This document shows, in pieces, positions 27,077 through 35,620 of a stretch of 64,000 bases of DNA. Location of the stretch: the NCBI GenBank assembly GCA_025351345.1, contig JANXWB010000042.1, positions 1 through 64,000 on the forward strand. Reading direction: 5' to 3'. The notes under the pieces are model-generated. The model ran no database searches and was not told where the DNA came from. It saw only the letters and a list, made by a program, of their open reading frames with translations. The DNA is from Synechococcales cyanobacterium GL140_1_metabat_312 (GTDB lineage Bacteria > Cyanobacteriota > Cyanobacteriia > Leptolyngbyales > Leptolyngbyaceae). A program made the position numbers and the translations under genes. Position 1 is the first letter of the stretch; the number at the start of each line of letters is the position of its first letter.

Positions 27077-28798
27077 ATGCCTCTAACTCGTCAGCTCAAT
27101 CTTTATGCATTTCTAGCAAAATTACCTGGATTTAAAACCAGATATATTGCAAAGATTATGCTGGTTGCTTTTTTAGGGATACATGTTCCACTAATAACGT
27201 TATTGCTTAGTTTTTTAATAACTCGCACTGAGTCTTTGACGACGATAATTCATATTTTGAGTGTCGCGCTAATCGCAACTTTGGTCGGAACAGTTGCAAC
27301 ACTCTACGCACTCAATTATCTCTTAGCTCCTGTAATTCTCACCTCTGCTGCGTTAAAGAATTATTTGGATACTCGAACGTTAGCTCAGTTGCCAACAGGC
27401 TTTAGAGATGAGGCAGGAACATTGATGGGGAATACCTACCAAACGTTACATCAATTAGATGGGTTGATTGATTATATGACTCACTATGATGCTTTAACGG
27501 GGTTGCCTAATGCAGAACTTTTACAAATTCGTCTTGAACAAACACTAACTCAATTTGCTCAGCAGCGTTTTACGATCACTATGATTGGAATTAATGAATT
27601 TTCAAATCTATGCGATCGGCGAGAGTCTCATATTGTTGGTCAGCTTCTCAAATCAATAACCTATAGACTGCAAAATATTATTGATTCAACTGATGAATTA
27701 GCCTATTGGAGTCCGGGAGTTTTTACTATTGTGAGTCTTAAACCCTCTTCTTTTGAGGAAGTAGTAAAGCGATCGCAGATTGTTTTGAATACTTTAAATC
27801 AACCCTATAAATTAACAAATAATCACATACAAATTAACGTGAATCTCGGCATTCGTTTGAGTTCTTTGGATGAGACTCCAGTAGAAAATCAGAACGCTAG
27901 AATGGTCGTCGATCGGCGGATACAACAAGCAAATATGACACTTCGTGCTGCCCAAATAGATCGACAGCCTTATCAATTCTATTCATCAAGTTTGAACCAG
28001 AAATTACAGCGTCAGATTGTTTTAGAGAATGATCTGCATAGTGCGCTTGAGCGGCAGGAAATTCGGATACATTATCAACCGATCGTTAATTTACAGAATG
28101 GTGAAATCATTGGAGTAGAAGCTTTAATGCGTTGGCAACATCCGAAGCTTGGATGGGTATCACCAGATCAATTTATCCCGATCGCAGAAGCAAATGGTTT
28201 GATTCAATCCCTTGGGGCTTGGGTCTTGAAGATGGCCTGTTTAGATAGCAGGGCTTGGAGAGATCAGGGATTGAATCCCATTAGAATGTCGGTTAATTTA
28301 TCAACCCGTCAACTAGAACATCCCGATTTGCTAGAGCATATTTTTCAAATTCTGAATGATGCTGAAATTCCAGCAACGGATTTGGAATTAGAGATTACAG
28401 AAACCGCATTGATGGGAGATACTGAGCGATCGGTAGACATTTTAACCCAATTACGAAAAGAAGGAATTTCACTTGCATTAGATGATTTTGGCACGGGTCA
28501 CTCATCATTAAGTTACTTGAAACGATTCCCAGTCAATATGATTAAAATAGACCGATCGTTTGTTACTAATATTCTGCAAGATCCACACGATGCTGCTATT
28601 GCTGGGACTATTATTGCACTCGCTCATAGTCTTAATTTGAACATTACAGTAGAGGGAATTGAAACTAAAGAACAGCTGGAATACTTTAAATTACAAGACT
28701 GTCATGAAGGACAAGGGTTCTATTTTAGTCGTGGTGTATCAGCGGAAGCGATAACAAAGTTACTTCAAAGGCAGACCTTTAATTACGGCCAAAACTAA
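27077..28798 (+). CDS. Membrane-bound degenerate GGDEF / intact EAL c-di-GMP phosphodiesterase
   Basis: A 573-residue protein with two N-terminal membrane helices (about 24-50 and 58-88), a HAMP-like linker, a GGDEF domain from about 130 and an EAL domain from about 320. The GGDEF site itself reads W-S-P-G-V-F, so cyclase activity is unlikely. The EAL domain keeps EALMRW, the ITETALMGD segment, DDFGTGHSSL and KIDRSFV, with VEGIE near the end, so it should hydrolyse c-di-GMP. The gene stands alone between the lipoate ligase-like gene and rpe. The signal it senses is unknown. Confidence 0.9.
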   Translation: MPLTRQLNLYAFLAKLPGFKTRYIAKIMLVAFLGIHVPLITLLLSFLITRTESLTTIIHILSVALIATLVGTVATLYALNYLLAPVILTSAALKNYLDTRTLAQLPTGFRDEAGTLMGNTYQTLHQLDGLIDYMTHYDALTGLPNAELLQIRLEQTLTQFAQQRFTITMIGINEFSNLCDRRESHIVGQLLKSITYRLQNIIDSTDELAYWSPGVFTIVSLKPSSFEEVVKRSQIVLNTLNQPYKLTNNHIQINVNLGIRLSSLDETPVENQNARMVVDRRIQQANMTLRAAQIDRQPYQFYSSSLNQKLQRQIVLENDLHSALERQEIRIHYQPIVNLQNGEIIGVEALMRWQHPKLGWVSPDQFIPIAEANGLIQSLGAWVLKMACLDSRAWRDQGLNPIRMSVNLSTRQLEHPDLLEHIFQILNDAEIPATDLELEITETALMGDTERSVDILTQLRKEGISLALDDFGTGHSSLSYLKRFPVNMIKIDRSFVTNILQDPHDAAIAGTIIALAHSLNLNITVEGIETKEQLEYFKLQDCHEGQGFYFSRGVSAEAITKLLQRQTFNYGQN

Positions 28799-28963: not shown

Positions 28964-29662
28964 TTACACTGTAGCTAGAACTTTTTCAGGGCGTTTGCTG
29001 TTACGAATTCCTGCGATCGCATCCTTATAGTCTGGCGTATTAAAAACCGCCGAACCCGCAACAATAGCATTAGCACCTGCTTCCAAAACTTGCCAAGTAT
29101 TGTTTGCCTTCAAGCCGCCGTCTACTTCAATCCAAGGATCCAAGCCCCGTTCGTCACACATTTTCCGGAGTTGCTGAATTTTGGGAACGACAGATGGAAT
29201 GAAGCTCTGACCGCCAAAGCCAGGATTGACACTCATGATTAATACAAGATCACACAGATCTAGGACGTAATCGATCGTATCTAGAGACGTTCCTGGATTC
29301 AAGACAACGCCTGCTTGTTTGCCCAAGTCTTTGATCATTCCCAACACCCGATGAAGGTGAGTGGTAGAAGTTTGCTCTGCATGGACAGAAATAATGTCTG
29401 CCCCAGCCTTTGCAAAGTCGGCCACATACCGCTCAGGTTCAACAATCATTAAGTGAACGTCAAGAGGCTTTTGAGTATGGGGACGGACGGCTTCAACGAT
29501 CAATGGACCGATCGTGATGTTTGGGACGAAACGCCCATCCATGACATCCACATGGATCCAATCTGCACCCGCTGCATCTACTGCCCGAATTTCTTCACCT
29601 AAACGACCAAAGTCAGCGGACAAAATAGACGGTGAGATCATCGTGGTTTTTGGGGAGGTCAT
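28964..29662 (-). CDS. rpe: Ribulose-phosphate 3-epimerase
   Basis: Interconverts ribulose 5-phosphate and xylulose 5-phosphate in the Calvin cycle and pentose phosphate pathway. A 232-residue TIM barrel with [15 protein letters not shown], the metal-binding [15 protein letters not shown] near residue 36, [26 protein letters not shown] and the VDGGLKANN motif with the second catalytic aspartate. Length and motifs are normal. Confidence 0.96.
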
Positions 29663-29840
29663 GACAGGCTCAAAAGATAAAGGATTGACGGTGCATGATC
29701 TCGAAAATCATAGAGAACATTACACAGATGTGATTAGTTTAACAAAGCCTGAATCTTTTTTAGCACCACATGTCGCCCATATATCCCTAAGATGCCCCTA
29801 AGATATGAGAACGAAAAATTCAAGTGGGCGGTTTGAGACG

Positions 29841-31610
29841 ATGAGAACAAAACAACCGCTGAACCGATCGCATCCGATCGCTGCTCTGGGTGCTTTGATC
29901 GTGACCAGTTTATTCAGTAGCGGATTCACCGTTGTTCCGTCCTCTATAGAGCAGGGTTCGATCGGACCCAATGGAATCGATGCCCTTCGACTTCAACGAT
30001 CGCCTTTTAATTTGACGGGCCGAAAAATTGTGATTGGTCAGGTCGAAGTGGGCCGCCCACCTATGTTTGGAGTGGATAAGGCGCAGGATAAATTAAAGCG
30101 AATTCAGCCTGAATCTTCGTTTTTTCATCTCCAACTCAATCAAGTTTTTTATCGCGATCGATTGGCCAACCAAAGCAATCTAATGATGGGTGATCTGATC
30201 GATGGCGAAACGCTCCAAACTCAAGTCGATCCCCATGCAACCCAAGTGGCCAGCATCATTTTCGCTGATCACAAACTCCTGCAAGGCATAGCCCCGAGCG
30301 CCCGTCTCTATTCAGCAGCAGCAGGTGGCATCATGCGAGGTGCCCAGCCAGAAGATTGTCTGGCGGCCCAAACCGTTGCCTTGCAAAATAATAATGATGT
30401 CCGGGTGATAAATCTAAGCTTTGGCGAATCACTCCGAGATGACCCACGATCTGATGCCTTACTTGATGGCAATGCGCTGTTAACCCAATGCGTCGATTGG
30501 TCGGCACGGGTTCATGATGTCCTGTATGTGATTGCAGGAAACCAAGGGAAAGGCGGCATTCCCATTCCAACGGATAACTATAATGGCATGACGATCGCCT
30601 CTTCAAAAGTTGTGAACGATCGGGACAGTAATCGATACCGTAAAGTCGATTTTTCAAACCTTAGCGACACTCTTCTCACTTCTCGTCCTAACCATCCTGG
30701 TCAAGAGAGTAATGCTGGAGACCGCCGACAAGTTGCCCTTGCAGCCCCCGGACACCGCATCACCGTTCGTAAGCTAAATGGCCAAATCACCACGGGAACA
30801 GGCACCAGTTTTGCTACGCCCCATGTCACGGGAACGGTTGCATTGCTTCAAGAATGGGGCGATCGGCAACTCGTGAAAAGCTGTAAACGGGGTCGGGGTT
30901 GTTCATTGCCTTGGACTACGGATGCGCGCCGTCATGAGGTGATGAAAGTGGTGTTGATGAATTCGGCGGATAAGCTTCAGGATTCTGGCGATGGGAATTT
31001 GTTGGGAATGTCGCGGGCGATGATCCAAAAAAATAATCAGGACTGGCTCACGTCAAAAAGTTTCACGGCTCAAAATCTCCCGTCAGATTCAGCTATCAAT
31101 TCATCATCGCTAAATATTCAATTCGGCACCGGACATCTCAATGCTAGCCGTGCCTATCAGCAATTCAATGGCGGACAATGGAAACCGGGAAGGGTACCAT
31201 CGATCGGGTGGGATTATGGAACGATCGATCAATCTCGGGTGGTGGACTATGCCATTTTTCCCGAGCTGAAAGCCAACAGCTACATTTCCTTGACGTTAGC
31301 TTGGGACCGCCGAGTAGATTTGCAGGACCGGAATTTGAATGGGAAATTCGACCTGAAGGAAACCTTTGTCGATCGAGGTTTAAATAATCTGGATCTCTAT
31401 CTGCTGCCTGCTACTGACCAAGATACTCGCCGTAGCATTGCCTCGTCCGTCAGTAATGTGGACAGTGTGGAACACATATTTCATAAAATTCCCCGATCGG
31501 GCCAGTACAAAATTCGGGTCGTTTTTCGATCGCAAATCAATGAACCGACCCAAGCCTTTGCCCTAGCATGGTGGAGCGTTCCGGTGATTAGTCTGCGTTC
31601 ATCACATTGA
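29841..31610 (+). CDS. Subtilisin-family (S8) serine protease-like secreted protein
   Basis: About 589 residues from the ATG at 29841, whose product begins with a signal peptide (PIAALGALIVTSLFSSG). A nearly identical ATGAGAAC start lies at 29805 in the same frame and would add 12 residues. The catalytic histidine is in DPHATQVASII, the oxyanion asparagine in VIAGNQG, and the nucleophile in GTGTSFATPHVTG. The position of the catalytic aspartate reads GQVEVGRP, so Glu stands where Asp is expected. The C-terminal 180 residues resemble a P/jelly-roll-like domain with DRNLNGKFDLKE, a possible calcium loop. A lipoprotein serpin gene follows 88 bp downstream of the stop. Confidence 0.82.
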   Translation: MRTKQPLNRSHPIAALGALIVTSLFSSGFTVVPSSIEQGSIGPNGIDALRLQRSPFNLTGRKIVIGQVEVGRPPMFGVDKAQDKLKRIQPESSFFHLQLNQVFYRDRLANQSNLMMGDLIDGETLQTQVDPHATQVASIIFADHKLLQGIAPSARLYSAAAGGIMRGAQPEDCLAAQTVALQNNNDVRVINLSFGESLRDDPRSDALLDGNALLTQCVDWSARVHDVLYVIAGNQGKGGIPIPTDNYNGMTIASSKVVNDRDSNRYRKVDFSNLSDTLLTSRPNHPGQESNAGDRRQVALAAPGHRITVRKLNGQITTGTGTSFATPHVTGTVALLQEWGDRQLVKSCKRGRGCSLPWTTDARRHEVMKVVLMNSADKLQDSGDGNLLGMSRAMIQKNNQDWLTSKSFTAQNLPSDSAINSSSLNIQFGTGHLNASRAYQQFNGGQWKPGRVPSIGWDYGTIDQSRVVDYAIFPELKANSYISLTLAWDRRVDLQDRNLNGKFDLKETFVDRGLNNLDLYLLPATDQDTRRSIASSVSNVDSVEHIFHKIPRSGQYKIRVVFRSQINEPTQAFALAWWSVPVISLRSSH

Positions 31611-31698
31611 AAAATCCGCCGAATATGTCCCGAAATCGATCGTTCTCTGGTGTATCTTACGGTATCTAGAATTAATACAAGTGCATCACCGAGCATCC

Positions 31699-33030
31699 AT
31701 GAAAAATCATTCATTCAACCGAAAAATCGGAGGATCGCTATTAGCCCTGAGTCTGATATTGAGTGCAATGGGTTGTACCGCCCCAGCCAGCCGATCGGCA
31801 GATCCGCAGCCCAGTATGCCCAGCATTGCCTCACCCGATCGTTTTCCGGTTGAGCAGTCTAGCGTTCTTCAGCCTAGCAACCCACCAACCTCTCGGCCTG
31901 CATCAAAGCTCAACCCTATGAACTCCAAGTTTATAGCTGCCCAAACCCGATTTAGCTTGAATCTTTTCTCAACCTTGCAAAAAAAAGATCCTAAGAAAAA
32001 TCTATTTATCTCGCCCATCAGCATCTCTCAAGCGATCTCAATGATCTACAACGGTGCAGCGGCGGAAACTCAAAGCGCGATCGCTTCGGCACTTGCCCTA
32101 GAAAACTTATCGTTAGACGACTTTAATAGCGGCAACGAAGATCTCCGCAATGCCCTAGAGCATCCTGGTCGAGACATTCAGCTCAGTATTGCTAACTCCC
32201 TTTGGACCAACCAAGATACGCCCATCAATCCTGATTTTATTCGTCGGAATCAGCAGTTTTATAATGCCAAAGTTGAGTCTTTAGATTTCAACAACAACAA
32301 AAGCGTCGGCATCATCAATAATTGGGTCAAACGTAATACCCAGGGCAAAATTGAGGGAATTGTCGATCAACTAAGTGGGGCCGATCGGCTAATTCTCGTC
32401 AATGCCACTTACTTCAAAGGGGAGTGGAGTAGCCCTTTTAAATTGGATCAAACCACGTCTCAAGACTTCTCTACGCCAGACGGGAATAAGAGGGTGCCGA
32501 TGATGGCAAAACGCGGGACATTTCGTTATTTTGAACTGAAAGGGTTGCAGGCCGTTGCGCTACCCTATGGCGATCGGCGTTTGAATCTCTATGTTTTTCT
32601 GCCAAGAAATGGACAGACTCTTGATAGCGTTATTCAAACCCTCAGCCCAGAAGCTTGGACGCGGTGGATGAGCGAATTTAGAATGGTTCCCGGCTATCTC
32701 CAATTACCTCGCTTCAAAATGGAATCCGAATTAGAACTCAAGAAGCCCCTAAGTGAACTCGGAATGGGGATTGCGTTTAGTGATAAAGCCAATTTTTCAA
32801 GCCTGACTACTCACCCGGTTCACATTGATCAAGTGATTCATAAAACCTTGGTCGAAGTGGATGAAGCGGGTACCACAGCGGCAGCGGCAACTGCGATCGG
32901 AATCAGATCTACCTCAATAGAAGCTGTGAAAACGCCGTTTGAGATGAAAGTCAATCAACCGTTCTTGTGCGTTCTTCGGGACGATAAAACGGGCGCTATT
33001 TTGTTCATGGGTGCGATCAATAATCCTTAG
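31699..33030 (+). CDS. Lipoprotein serpin (serine protease inhibitor, family I4)
   Basis: A serpin of about 443 residues, rare in cyanobacteria. From the ATG at 31699 it has a lipoprotein signal with lipobox LSAMGC, a Pro/Ser-rich spacer, then a complete serpin domain from about residue 80: NLFISPISISQAISMIYNGA, then NATYFKGEWSSPF, then the hinge EAGTTAAAATA and the closing PFLCVLRDDKTGAILFMGAI. The reactive-centre hinge (G-T-x-A-A-A-A-T) fits inhibitory serpins. Counting from it places the scissile bond near RSTS. A longer start at 31681 is also in frame. It follows the S8 protease gene on the same strand, so a protease/inhibitor pair is likely. Confidence 0.92.
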   Translation: MKNHSFNRKIGGSLLALSLILSAMGCTAPASRSADPQPSMPSIASPDRFPVEQSSVLQPSNPPTSRPASKLNPMNSKFIAAQTRFSLNLFSTLQKKDPKKNLFISPISISQAISMIYNGAAAETQSAIASALALENLSLDDFNSGNEDLRNALEHPGRDIQLSIANSLWTNQDTPINPDFIRRNQQFYNAKVESLDFNNNKSVGIINNWVKRNTQGKIEGIVDQLSGADRLILVNATYFKGEWSSPFKLDQTTSQDFSTPDGNKRVPMMAKRGTFRYFELKGLQAVALPYGDRRLNLYVFLPRNGQTLDSVIQTLSPEAWTRWMSEFRMVPGYLQLPRFKMESELELKKPLSELGMGIAFSDKANFSSLTTHPVHIDQVIHKTLVEVDEAGTTAAAATAIGIRSTSIEAVKTPFEMKVNQPFLCVLRDDKTGAILFMGAINNP

Positions 33031-33095: not shown

Positions 33096-34376
33096 TTATT
33101 TAGGGTCATGTCTTGGAAATGATGGCAAATCGATCGCAGCCATTGCATCTCGTTTTTGAGACTTGGTTTTGGAAATTAGAGGAGCAATAGCCTCTGGCCG
33201 ATCTTTAACTGTCGGAGTTGTTAGGTGTGCATCGTCTTGTGAGTGTATCGTCTCGACAATATTTACCTCTTCGCCCAGAATCGCATTGACCTGAGCTATC
33301 ACTTGGGACCAATTATCTAATCGTTGAGCATCATCAAGCTTTGGGTTACGTTCAATTTGGCCTAGATCTAATTGATTATGATCATCTGAAACTGTCTCAA
33401 TTCCAGGGTCTACTCCGATCGGGGTGGCGATTGGGATTTCAGCCGGGGTTTCGATCGTAGCGTTAACAAATTCGGCAATAGTTTCTTGGGCAATGCTTGC
33501 ATCAGTACCAGATTCTTTCTCAATGTCGTCTGATTGGTCTGATTCACGGTCTGTGATGATCGCATTGGCCCAAGGTTGAAGGATCGGTGGCTCATTGACT
33601 TCTACGATCGTGTTGGCGTTACTCCAAGGTTGGACGGGTTGCGATCGGGGAATTTTAACTTTAAGGGGCGAAATGACGACCGGATCTAGGGTTTCCTCTA
33701 AAAAGTCGGCTACAAATCCTTGAGCGGTGGCGGGCGGTACATCTAAGCATTTTTCCAGGGCTGCTTTGAATTGCAAGGTGTAGCGCTGTTGGCGATGAAG
33801 CCGCGATCGTAAATCTCGGACAGTTTGTTCGGATTGGGTAAATTGCTGAAGATTATCATTCGATCGTTGTTGCACGGCAGCACATTCGCGTTCAAGTTGA
33901 GCGATTTGTTCGTGACTGCTTTGAAGCTGATCGGTTAATGTTTCGACCAAAATCTGTTGTCTTTGGGCCATGCGATGAGAATTTTCTAGTTCTACAAAGA
34001 GCTGGCCGAGCCGAACTTGAGATCCTGAAAGGGCTTGGTTTTGTTGGGCTAATAGGCTTTCGGAACTTTCTAATGAGCCAGACTGCGCCAGAGTAGCGGC
34101 TTCCCAACGTTCTATTTCAGCCCGAAGCGAGGTCTGCGATCGGAGTAAAGCGGCTTCGAGTTCTATGACCTGCGATCGGAGTTCTTGGTTTTGGTGCTGA
34201 ACCTTTATATAAAAATCGCCACTGACTAAACTCGGTTGCACTGGATGTTCTTCAACTTGCTCTAATAAGTCATCCACAGGCATCGCATCCGGAAATGTCA
34301 CAATTTCCCATTCATCTGACGGTCTAGTTTCGTGAGAATGGGTTGGGTTGGGCTGATTTTGGGTAGATTCATTCAT
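33096..34376 (-). CDS. Coiled-coil protein of unknown function
   Basis: A 426-residue soluble protein. The first 45 residues are acidic and contain WEIVTFPDAMPVDDLLEQVEE. Residues about 60-200 form a long predicted coiled coil rich in Gln, Glu, Leu and Arg (LRSQVIELEAALLRSQTSL, LQSSHEQIAQLERECAAVQ). The rest is acidic and low-complexity, with repeated PWANA/PWSNA elements, and ends with a short basic tail. I recognise no enzymatic motif. It precedes csaB on the minus strand order (csaB upstream, 90-nt gap). A scaffold or cell-architecture role would suit the sequence but is a guess. Confidence 0.65.
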   Translation of the reverse strand: MNESTQNQPNPTHSHETRPSDEWEIVTFPDAMPVDDLLEQVEEHPVQPSLVSGDFYIKVQHQNQELRSQVIELEAALLRSQTSLRAEIERWEAATLAQSGSLESSESLLAQQNQALSGSQVRLGQLFVELENSHRMAQRQQILVETLTDQLQSSHEQIAQLERECAAVQQRSNDNLQQFTQSEQTVRDLRSRLHRQQRYTLQFKAALEKCLDVPPATAQGFVADFLEETLDPVVISPLKVKIPRSQPVQPWSNANTIVEVNEPPILQPWANAIITDRESDQSDDIEKESGTDASIAQETIAEFVNATIETPAEIPIATPIGVDPGIETVSDDHNQLDLGQIERNPKLDDAQRLDNWSQVIAQVNAILGEEVNIVETIHSQDDAHLTTPTVKDRPEAIAPLISKTKSQKRDAMAAIDLPSFPRHDPK

Positions 34377-34465
34377 GATTTTGATGTCCTGCCTGACGTT
34401 CTGCCTGTGAAAACCTTAACGCTAGGATAACTTAAGTCTGAAGTAAGTAAATTAAGTCTTTTAAC

Positions 34466-35620
34466 TCAGAGTGAGGGTCTGAAAAATTTGTCAAGCACTT
34501 GGCGTAAACGATCGCGATGCTGCGTTGCGCTTTGAATTAAGGTTTGTCGAATCCCTTCAAGGTCCGCTCGTCCATCGTTCGGATTGCCATAGACGAACCC
34601 CGTTTCCATTGTTTGTCTCAATTCTGGGAGCCACTCAGCGATACGTTTATCTAGGGTTGAGTCTGTTTCACTGAGTTCTACGATCGTAGTCAAATGCGCA
34701 GTTTCCATGACTTTTGTCACCTTTGGATCGTAGCTCAAAGCGAAGCAATTGCAGCCTTCAGAGATGGACATAATGACCGCATGAAGCCGCATCGCTATAG
34801 TAAATATAATATCTGGATGCCCAAATAGCCCTTTTATCACTTCAGGCTTATCTATACTCAAAACTCTACTTCTTGGAATTCTTACCTGTAAATCTCGGGC
34901 TATTTTTCCATCCAAACTTTCTTGGAATGGGACCAAGAGAATGGTGAAGCCAGAGGTATTTTTCTGAAACTCGATTAATGACTGCGTTAGAATCTCCAGC
35001 CGATCGGGCGTTAAGCTTGAATGCTCCCGAAGATTTACGACAATGCAGTAGTTCCGTTTGTTGTTCCCGAACTCTGACTCATCGGATAAATCAAAGCTGT
35101 AGTCTAAATCAAAGCTGTAGTCGGCGTTCATTGCCCAGACTGGATCGGGGGCTATGGTTGCCGAAATTCCCCAGCGTTGCAACATTTCGTGAGAAACCGT
35201 ATCACGTACCGTCACTAACTGACATCGCTTCAACACATGTCGAGTCAGCCAACGGTTCGATCGGTGATTCAAGGGTCCAATGCCTTGTGCCCAAGCGATC
35301 GTCTCCAAGCCCAACATCTGCGCCAGTTTCATCAGTCCGCCGTAGTATATCGGACTTACCCAGCTGCTATTGTCTTGCATCAAGCTTCCGCCGCCCCAAA
35401 TGAAGACCTTCGCCTGACGCATTTCTTTAATCACCGCCATTAAATCCCAGCGATCGCAAGCTTTAACCTGGTAACGATCGCGGGTTTCGGCGGGATTTTT
35501 AGACAGAACAATGGGTTCGACATATTCGGGAAGCGATTGAAGTAGGCAAATTAGGAGTGCCTCGTCACCCGCATTGCCCATGCCATAGTAGCCACAGAGA
35601 ATTACCCGTTGTTTTGACAT
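34466..35620 (-). CDS. csaB: Polysaccharide pyruvyl transferase CsaB
   Basis: A GT-B-like pyruvyltransferase that adds pyruvate ketals to cell-surface polysaccharide, which in other bacteria anchors S-layer proteins. The 384-residue protein opens with VILCGYYGMGNAGDEALL, typical of the family, and has WGGGSLMQDNSS near residue 75, FTIAMRLHAVIMS near 270 and the CFALSYDPKV motif near 295. A tandem 18-bp duplication gives DYSFDLDYSFDL near residue 170 without breaking the frame. Confidence 0.9.
   Translation of the reverse strand: MSKQRVILCGYYGMGNAGDEALLICLLQSLPEYVEPIVLSKNPAETRDRYQVKACDRWDLMAVIKEMRQAKVFIWGGGSLMQDNSSWVSPIYYGGLMKLAQMLGLETIAWAQGIGPLNHRSNRWLTRHVLKRCQLVTVRDTVSHEMLQRWGISATIAPDPVWAMNADYSFDLDYSFDLSDESEFGNNKRNYCIVVNLREHSSLTPDRLEILTQSLIEFQKNTSGFTILLVPFQESLDGKIARDLQVRIPRSRVLSIDKPEVIKGLFGHPDIIFTIAMRLHAVIMSISEGCNCFALSYDPKVTKVMETAHLTTIVELSETDSTLDKRIAEWLPELRQTMETGFVYGNPNDGRADLEGIRQTLIQSATQHRDRLRQVLDKFFRPSL
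35087..35122. repeat. Perfect 18-bp tandem duplication inside csaB
   Basis: TAAATCAAAGCTGTAGTC occurs at 35087-35104 and again at 35105-35122, adding six residues (DYSFDL) to the protein. Complete identity of the copies suggests a recent event. Confidence 0.9.

Follow-up and report, generated by a model that had tools for sequence, protein, structure and literature searches.

A gene for a predicted exported subtilase of family S8 and, directly behind it, a gene for a putative lipoprotein serpin belong to an old gene order, rpe-S8-serpin, and because the same order is found side by side in many distantly related cyanobacteria, the S8-serpin pair is probably meaningful. The pair is real and conserved, and it appears to be new to the literature, no description of it having been found in the papers searched. 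The serpin itself adds a member to a known family; its pairing with a subtilase carrying glutamate in place of the catalytic aspartate is new among protease-inhibitor gene pairs. The chances are about even that this locus encodes an envelope serpin that traps serine proteases, with the neighboring S8 as its likeliest, not its sole, target.

Layout of the locus

The features of the locus within the window (the whole stretch of 64,000 nucleotides that was analyzed) are the following.

27077-28798: GGDEF-EAL protein, upstream flank
28964..29662, minus strand: rpe (ribulose-phosphate 3-epimerase; Pfam 2e-89), divergent neighbor of the S8 gene
29841..31610, plus strand: putative exported S8 subtilase, 589 aa from the ATG at 29841 (601 aa from an alternative ATG at 29805); Pfam Peptidase_S8 78 bits, E 9e-22
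30045..30047, plus strand: codon for Glu81 replacing the catalytic Asp, motif GQVEVGRP (from the homolog alignment and the modelled strand)
30234..30236, plus strand: catalytic His144, invariant in 110/110 homologs
30540..30542, plus strand: oxyanion-hole Asn246, invariant in 110/110 homologs
30807..30809, plus strand: catalytic Ser335 (GTSFATPHV), invariant in 110/110 homologs
31611..31698, plus strand: S8-serpin intergenic gap, 88 bp between the stop codon of S8 and the ATG of the serpin
31699..33030, plus strand: putative lipoprotein serpin, 443 aa (449 aa from an alternative GTG start at 31681); Pfam Serpin 378 bits, E 8e-113
31699..31776, plus strand: serpin signal peptide and lipobox LSAMG/C, Cys codon at 31774-31776 (sequence inspection)
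32869..32892, plus strand: inhibitory hinge P15-P8, G-T-T-A-A-A-A-T (GTTAAAAT; from the sequence)
32869..32958, plus strand: serpin reactive center loop (alignment with miropin and 141 cyanobacterial serpins)
32911-32916, plus strand: P1-P1' Thr-Ser, standard numbering (same alignment)
33096-35620, minus strand: coiled-coil protein and CsaB-like pyruvyl transferase, downstream flank

The earlier note had read here a serpin 88 bp behind an S8 gene on the same strand, equipped with a complete inhibitory hinge and with a lipobox; the coordinates and Pfam domains agree with this arrangement, and the hinge and the lipobox with its Cys codon lie where listed above. Scanning the 88-bp gap (such scans are weak) revealed neither a terminator-like nor a sigma70/promoter-like site, which makes a single S8-serpin transcript plausible; no notable RNA fold was found in the gap either. 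In the host, S8 and serpin may be co-transcribed. Its genome (3.85 Mb), assigned to the order Leptolyngbyales on the basis of named relatives, contains no serpin other than the one in the window, and four further S8 genes.

Gene order and distribution in cyanobacteria

A serpin was found in 41 of the 42 genomes of the order and in 146 of the 390 genomes of the class; thus, the view that bacterial serpins are uncommon may hold generally, but not in the lineage of the host. A recent horizontal acquisition of the serpin is unsupported, both by this near-universal presence in the order and by its divergence, which tracks that of S8 and rpe. The S8 subfamily of the window occurs in 38/42 genomes of the order and 242/390 of the class. 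According to the presence lists, ∼125 class genomes contain both genes, 21 only the serpin, 117 only S8, and 127 neither, an association confounded by ancestry and genome size. The serpin is absent from about half of the S8-bearing genomes; conversely, groups f5 and f14 possess it and lack the window-type S8 throughout. A Tatlockia sp. MAG (L236) and a Candidatus Gracilibacteria MAG (L250) also carry the cyanobacterial S8, the former with a cyanobacterial rpe beside it; both are most likely mis-binned contigs.

Where both genes could be located (123 genomes), the serpin lies within 3 kb downstream of S8 in 34, and in all 34, which represent eight families, including ones of Nostocales, Oculatellales, and Leptolyngbyales, it is downstream and on the same strand. 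The conserved adjacency in other cyanobacteria on which the earlier note had made its reading depend was thus found, the pair being kept in at least three named orders. Adjacency by chance would be expected in ∼0.15 genomes (our estimate, 123 genomes × 6 kb / 5 Mb) and is ruled out, as the pair recurs in eight families and many named genera. The complete order rpe-S8-serpin is present in Myxacorys, Oculatella, Elainella, Nostoc punctiforme, Nostoc flagelliforme, Fischerella muscicola, Chlorogloeopsis fritschii, Scytonema, and Brasilonema, and S8 adjoins the divergent rpe in nearly all members of the order and in most of the named relatives. In Nostocales, the gap between S8 and serpin amounts to several hundred bases, which renders a single transcript less likely there. 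One serpin located behind S8 (locus L075, genome G008) is broken up over two frames, either by a frameshift or by an assembly error.

In the remaining 89 of the 123 genomes, S8 and serpin are apart. Linked serpins occur in many different parts of the serpin tree, so that nine changes of linkage are required, which fits an old arrangement that was lost several times; repeated gain of the linkage is the alternative. In many unlinked genomes of the order, the serpin is located between a glycosyltransferase gene and folC, and the gene neighborhoods of unlinked genomes revealed no shared protease neighbor comparable to S8. One genome (G001) shows the window order minus the serpin (rpe-S8-coiled coil-csaB). 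A mirror-tree comparison of S8 and serpin divergence gave an equally high correlation for the unlinked and the linked set and is therefore uninformative with regard to the pairing.

The serpin could instead act at the envelope as a general shield against serine or cysteine proteases other than S8, be it the cell's other exported subtilases, of which the four further S8 genes of the host would be candidates, or the proteases of neighbors, predators, or lytic bacteria, in which case its place behind S8 is inherited order and reflects no functional bond. We consider this possible, though somewhat less probable than not. It would account for the 21 genomes, among them the whole of f5 and f14, that have the serpin and no window-type S8, and for two genomes (G009 and G031) in which the serpin has remained beside rpe after S8 had gone. 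Moreover, rpe, which has no plausible functional link to the pair, is an equally conserved neighbor, so plain synteny persists as long. The strict orientation in 34/34 linked genomes across eight families, and the lack of a comparable protease neighbor of unlinked serpins, speak against it. In one of these two genomes, G009, an open frame of 1117 aa contains another serpin domain, which is divergent (contig C236:31725-32807); this may be a multidomain serpin.

A subtilase with glutamate at the acid position

The assignment of the upstream gene to the S8 proteases is confirmed, with one correction: the protease is not canonical. Glu81 occupies the position of the catalytic Asp, and does so family-wide (Glu in 105 of 109 aligned homologs; the 4 with Asp are from Oscillatoria, Phormidium, and Laspinema). 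The window S8 accordingly lacks the catalytic Asp within a D-T/S-G motif by which S8 members are recognized. In the AlphaFold model (pTM 0.84), which has the subtilisin fold, Glu81 is situated where the first strand ends, the place of the catalytic Asp in subtilisin. Since alignments with the host's other subtilases, or with PDB sequences, begin only after Glu81, it is the four members with Asp, together with the model, that support equating Glu with Asp.

The best PDB match of the model was a KP-43 type subtilase (1wmd, E 1.5e-20), and 5fax matched in fold as well. KP-43 resembles the window S8 in that the catalytic domain is followed by a beta-sandwich, which is PPC-like in the window S8 (a PPC domain was found in 20 of 36 homologs); however, the two are only 18% identical, and Glu at the acid position combined with absence of an I9 propeptide distinguishes the cyanobacterial family. 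A domain search found no I9 inhibitory propeptide in any of the 36 homologs, and only ∼30 residues lie between the S8 signal peptide and the first catalytic strand; within the S8 family as a whole, an I9-type propeptide is common, not universal.

The exchange of Asp for Glu could also mean that S8 works only very slowly, as a processing enzyme, or not at all, as a pseudo-protease, leaving nothing to inhibit and the two genes independent of each other. The prevalence of Glu (105/109) is in line with this, as is the Ala following the catalytic His (HAT/HAA/HAQ) where Gly is usual. Nevertheless, we regard it as improbable: His144, Asn246, and Ser335 are invariant, Asp is kept in four members, and the modelled S8 fold is intact, unlike what is seen in decaying pseudo-proteases. 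Invariance of these residues together with Asp/Glu exchange within one family is as expected of an active enzyme, and the window S8 is probably an exported, active protease employing Glu as its catalytic acid.

The serpin, its reactive loop, and its possible targets

The serpin comprises the full-length domain (Pfam Serpin positions 2-370 of 370). Its nearest solved relative, in both sequence (E 1.3e-71) and fold (TM 0.89, native form), is miropin from Tannerella forsythia (5ncs), which, like tengpin and the siropins, belongs to prokaryotic serpin group T; the match is one of pairwise comparison. Both proteins share a long reactive loop, Thr-Ser at P1-P1', and export, but are only ∼35% identical, and a conserved locus shared with a subtilase is a trait of the cyanobacterial serpins, none having been reported for miropin in the literature searched.

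The hinge (GTTAAAAT) has the residues that define the inhibitory type, namely Gly at P15, Thr/Ser at P14, and small residues at P12-P9. P15 never varies among the 141 cyanobacterial serpins compared; conservation is 96-100% at P15, P12, and P8, and 91-97% at P14, P12, and P8. That the serpin is instead non-inhibitory, with a storage, chaperone, or binding function, is very improbable; apart from Thr instead of Glu at P13 in the host's genus, nothing was found in its favor, and the small residues of P15-P8 and Thr at P14 are conserved. Measured against the strict consensus L-[AS]-[GA]-C, the window lipobox (LSAMGC) is weak; those of the orthologs, most of which have one, are better (LGLMGC, LSALGC, FSVLGC). 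Signal peptide and lipobox were judged by inspection, and with the lipobox Cys in place they point to a bacterial lipoprotein. Conserved hinge, lipobox, and miropin-like fold together argue for an inhibitory lipoprotein serpin. The serpins of Nostocales (L183, L190-L192, L198-L249) carry a conserved N-terminal leader, LQRRYxVxLGRRYVLAAASVV...GC, with a twin-arginine-like motif ahead of the lipobox, which may indicate that these serpins fold before being exported by the Tat pathway; the window serpin lacks this leader.

Across the 141 serpins, P4 is Ile/Val/Met, P1 is Thr in 68%, and P1' is Ser in 78%, while P3 and P2 are variable. Thr-Ser at P1-P1' is common to groups with adjacent, distant, or no S8, so loop specificity does not track linkage to S8. 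The loop of the S8-less groups f5 and f14 differs at P7, P5, and P2 (TGVIVxRT), a difference that follows lineage. As these figures hardly change with where S8 is located or whether it is present at all, there is no sign of strict specialization for the neighbor, which again accords with a general shield. The same applies to the broad specificity of miropin (PMC8201313) and to Nodularia spumigena UHCC 0039, whose serpin B (BMF81_04664), a candidate ortholog, was the most up-regulated gene in fresh water (0 g/L NaCl; PMC5853447). In families f23 and f40, serpins without an adjacent S8 are duplicated in tandem and differ in their reactive loops (L272 in G063, L275 in G141, L305 in G311), which suggests that their specificity has diversified.

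Returning to the trap proposed at the outset, the serpin would be anchored to the cell envelope by its lipid and would offer the Thr-Ser loop to a protease as bait; once cut, the loop would flip into sheet A, leaving the serine protease covalently trapped at the envelope. The neighboring S8, without an inhibitory propeptide, would be the prime, though not the only, endogenous candidate, given the long-kept operon-like order. Precedents make this mechanism reasonable. Inhibition of subtilisins is known for miropin as well as for other serpins from bacteria (PMC8201313, PMC6718151), and for miropin protection against secreted serine proteases was proposed (PMC4404884, PMC8201313). PinA (Clotm-serpin 1) from Clostridium thermocellum is likewise an inhibitor of subtilisins, and a role in checking the subtilisin-like protease of its own cell was suggested (PMC6718151, PMC8201313); it differs in being attached to the cellulosome, and a conserved gene pairing is unmentioned in these two papers. 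In the potempin/KLIKK system of T. forsythia, exported proteases, some of them subtilisin-like, are each paired with a lipoprotein gene, and the potempins were reported to inhibit the co-expressed protease encoded alongside (PMC4404884, PMC7296668). Conserved adjacency, which characterizes such protease/lipoprotein-inhibitor pairs, is found here too; however, potempins are small (ORFs of 360-550 bp), do not belong to the serpins, and are encoded ahead of the protease, whereas the inhibitor in the window is a serpin and follows it. Among cyanobacteria, vioserpin from Gloeobacter violaceus, a deep-branching host, forms a covalent complex with a trypsin-like protease, as cited in PMC8201313, which mentions no link to a subtilase.

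Thus, the proposal of a protease with its own brake is backed by the conserved pair and by the features of an inhibitory lipoprotein, but not by the reactive loop, which is the same where S8 is distant or absent. The chief reservation is that neighboring genes can stay together without a functional reason, rpe being a case in point. A broader shielding of the envelope against exported or foreign serine proteases is about as likely as a dedicated brake, considering the serpins that have the same loop and no adjacent S8, and the two genomes with the serpin beside rpe. The strictest version, an ancestral module in which a Glu-His-Ser subtilase without propeptide has the membrane-anchored serpin encoded behind it as its sole restraint, is rather unlikely.

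The widespread S8 subfamily with Glu for the catalytic Asp is worth enzymology in itself. Most work on bacterial serpins uses animal proteases; here, a free-living lineage offers a natural candidate target encoded next door, and the pair occurs in genera with working genetics (Nostoc, Fischerella). If the ancestral module were real, a bacterial subtilase would be under the natural control of a serpin in place of a propeptide, which would give prokaryotic serpins a regulatory role within their own cells.
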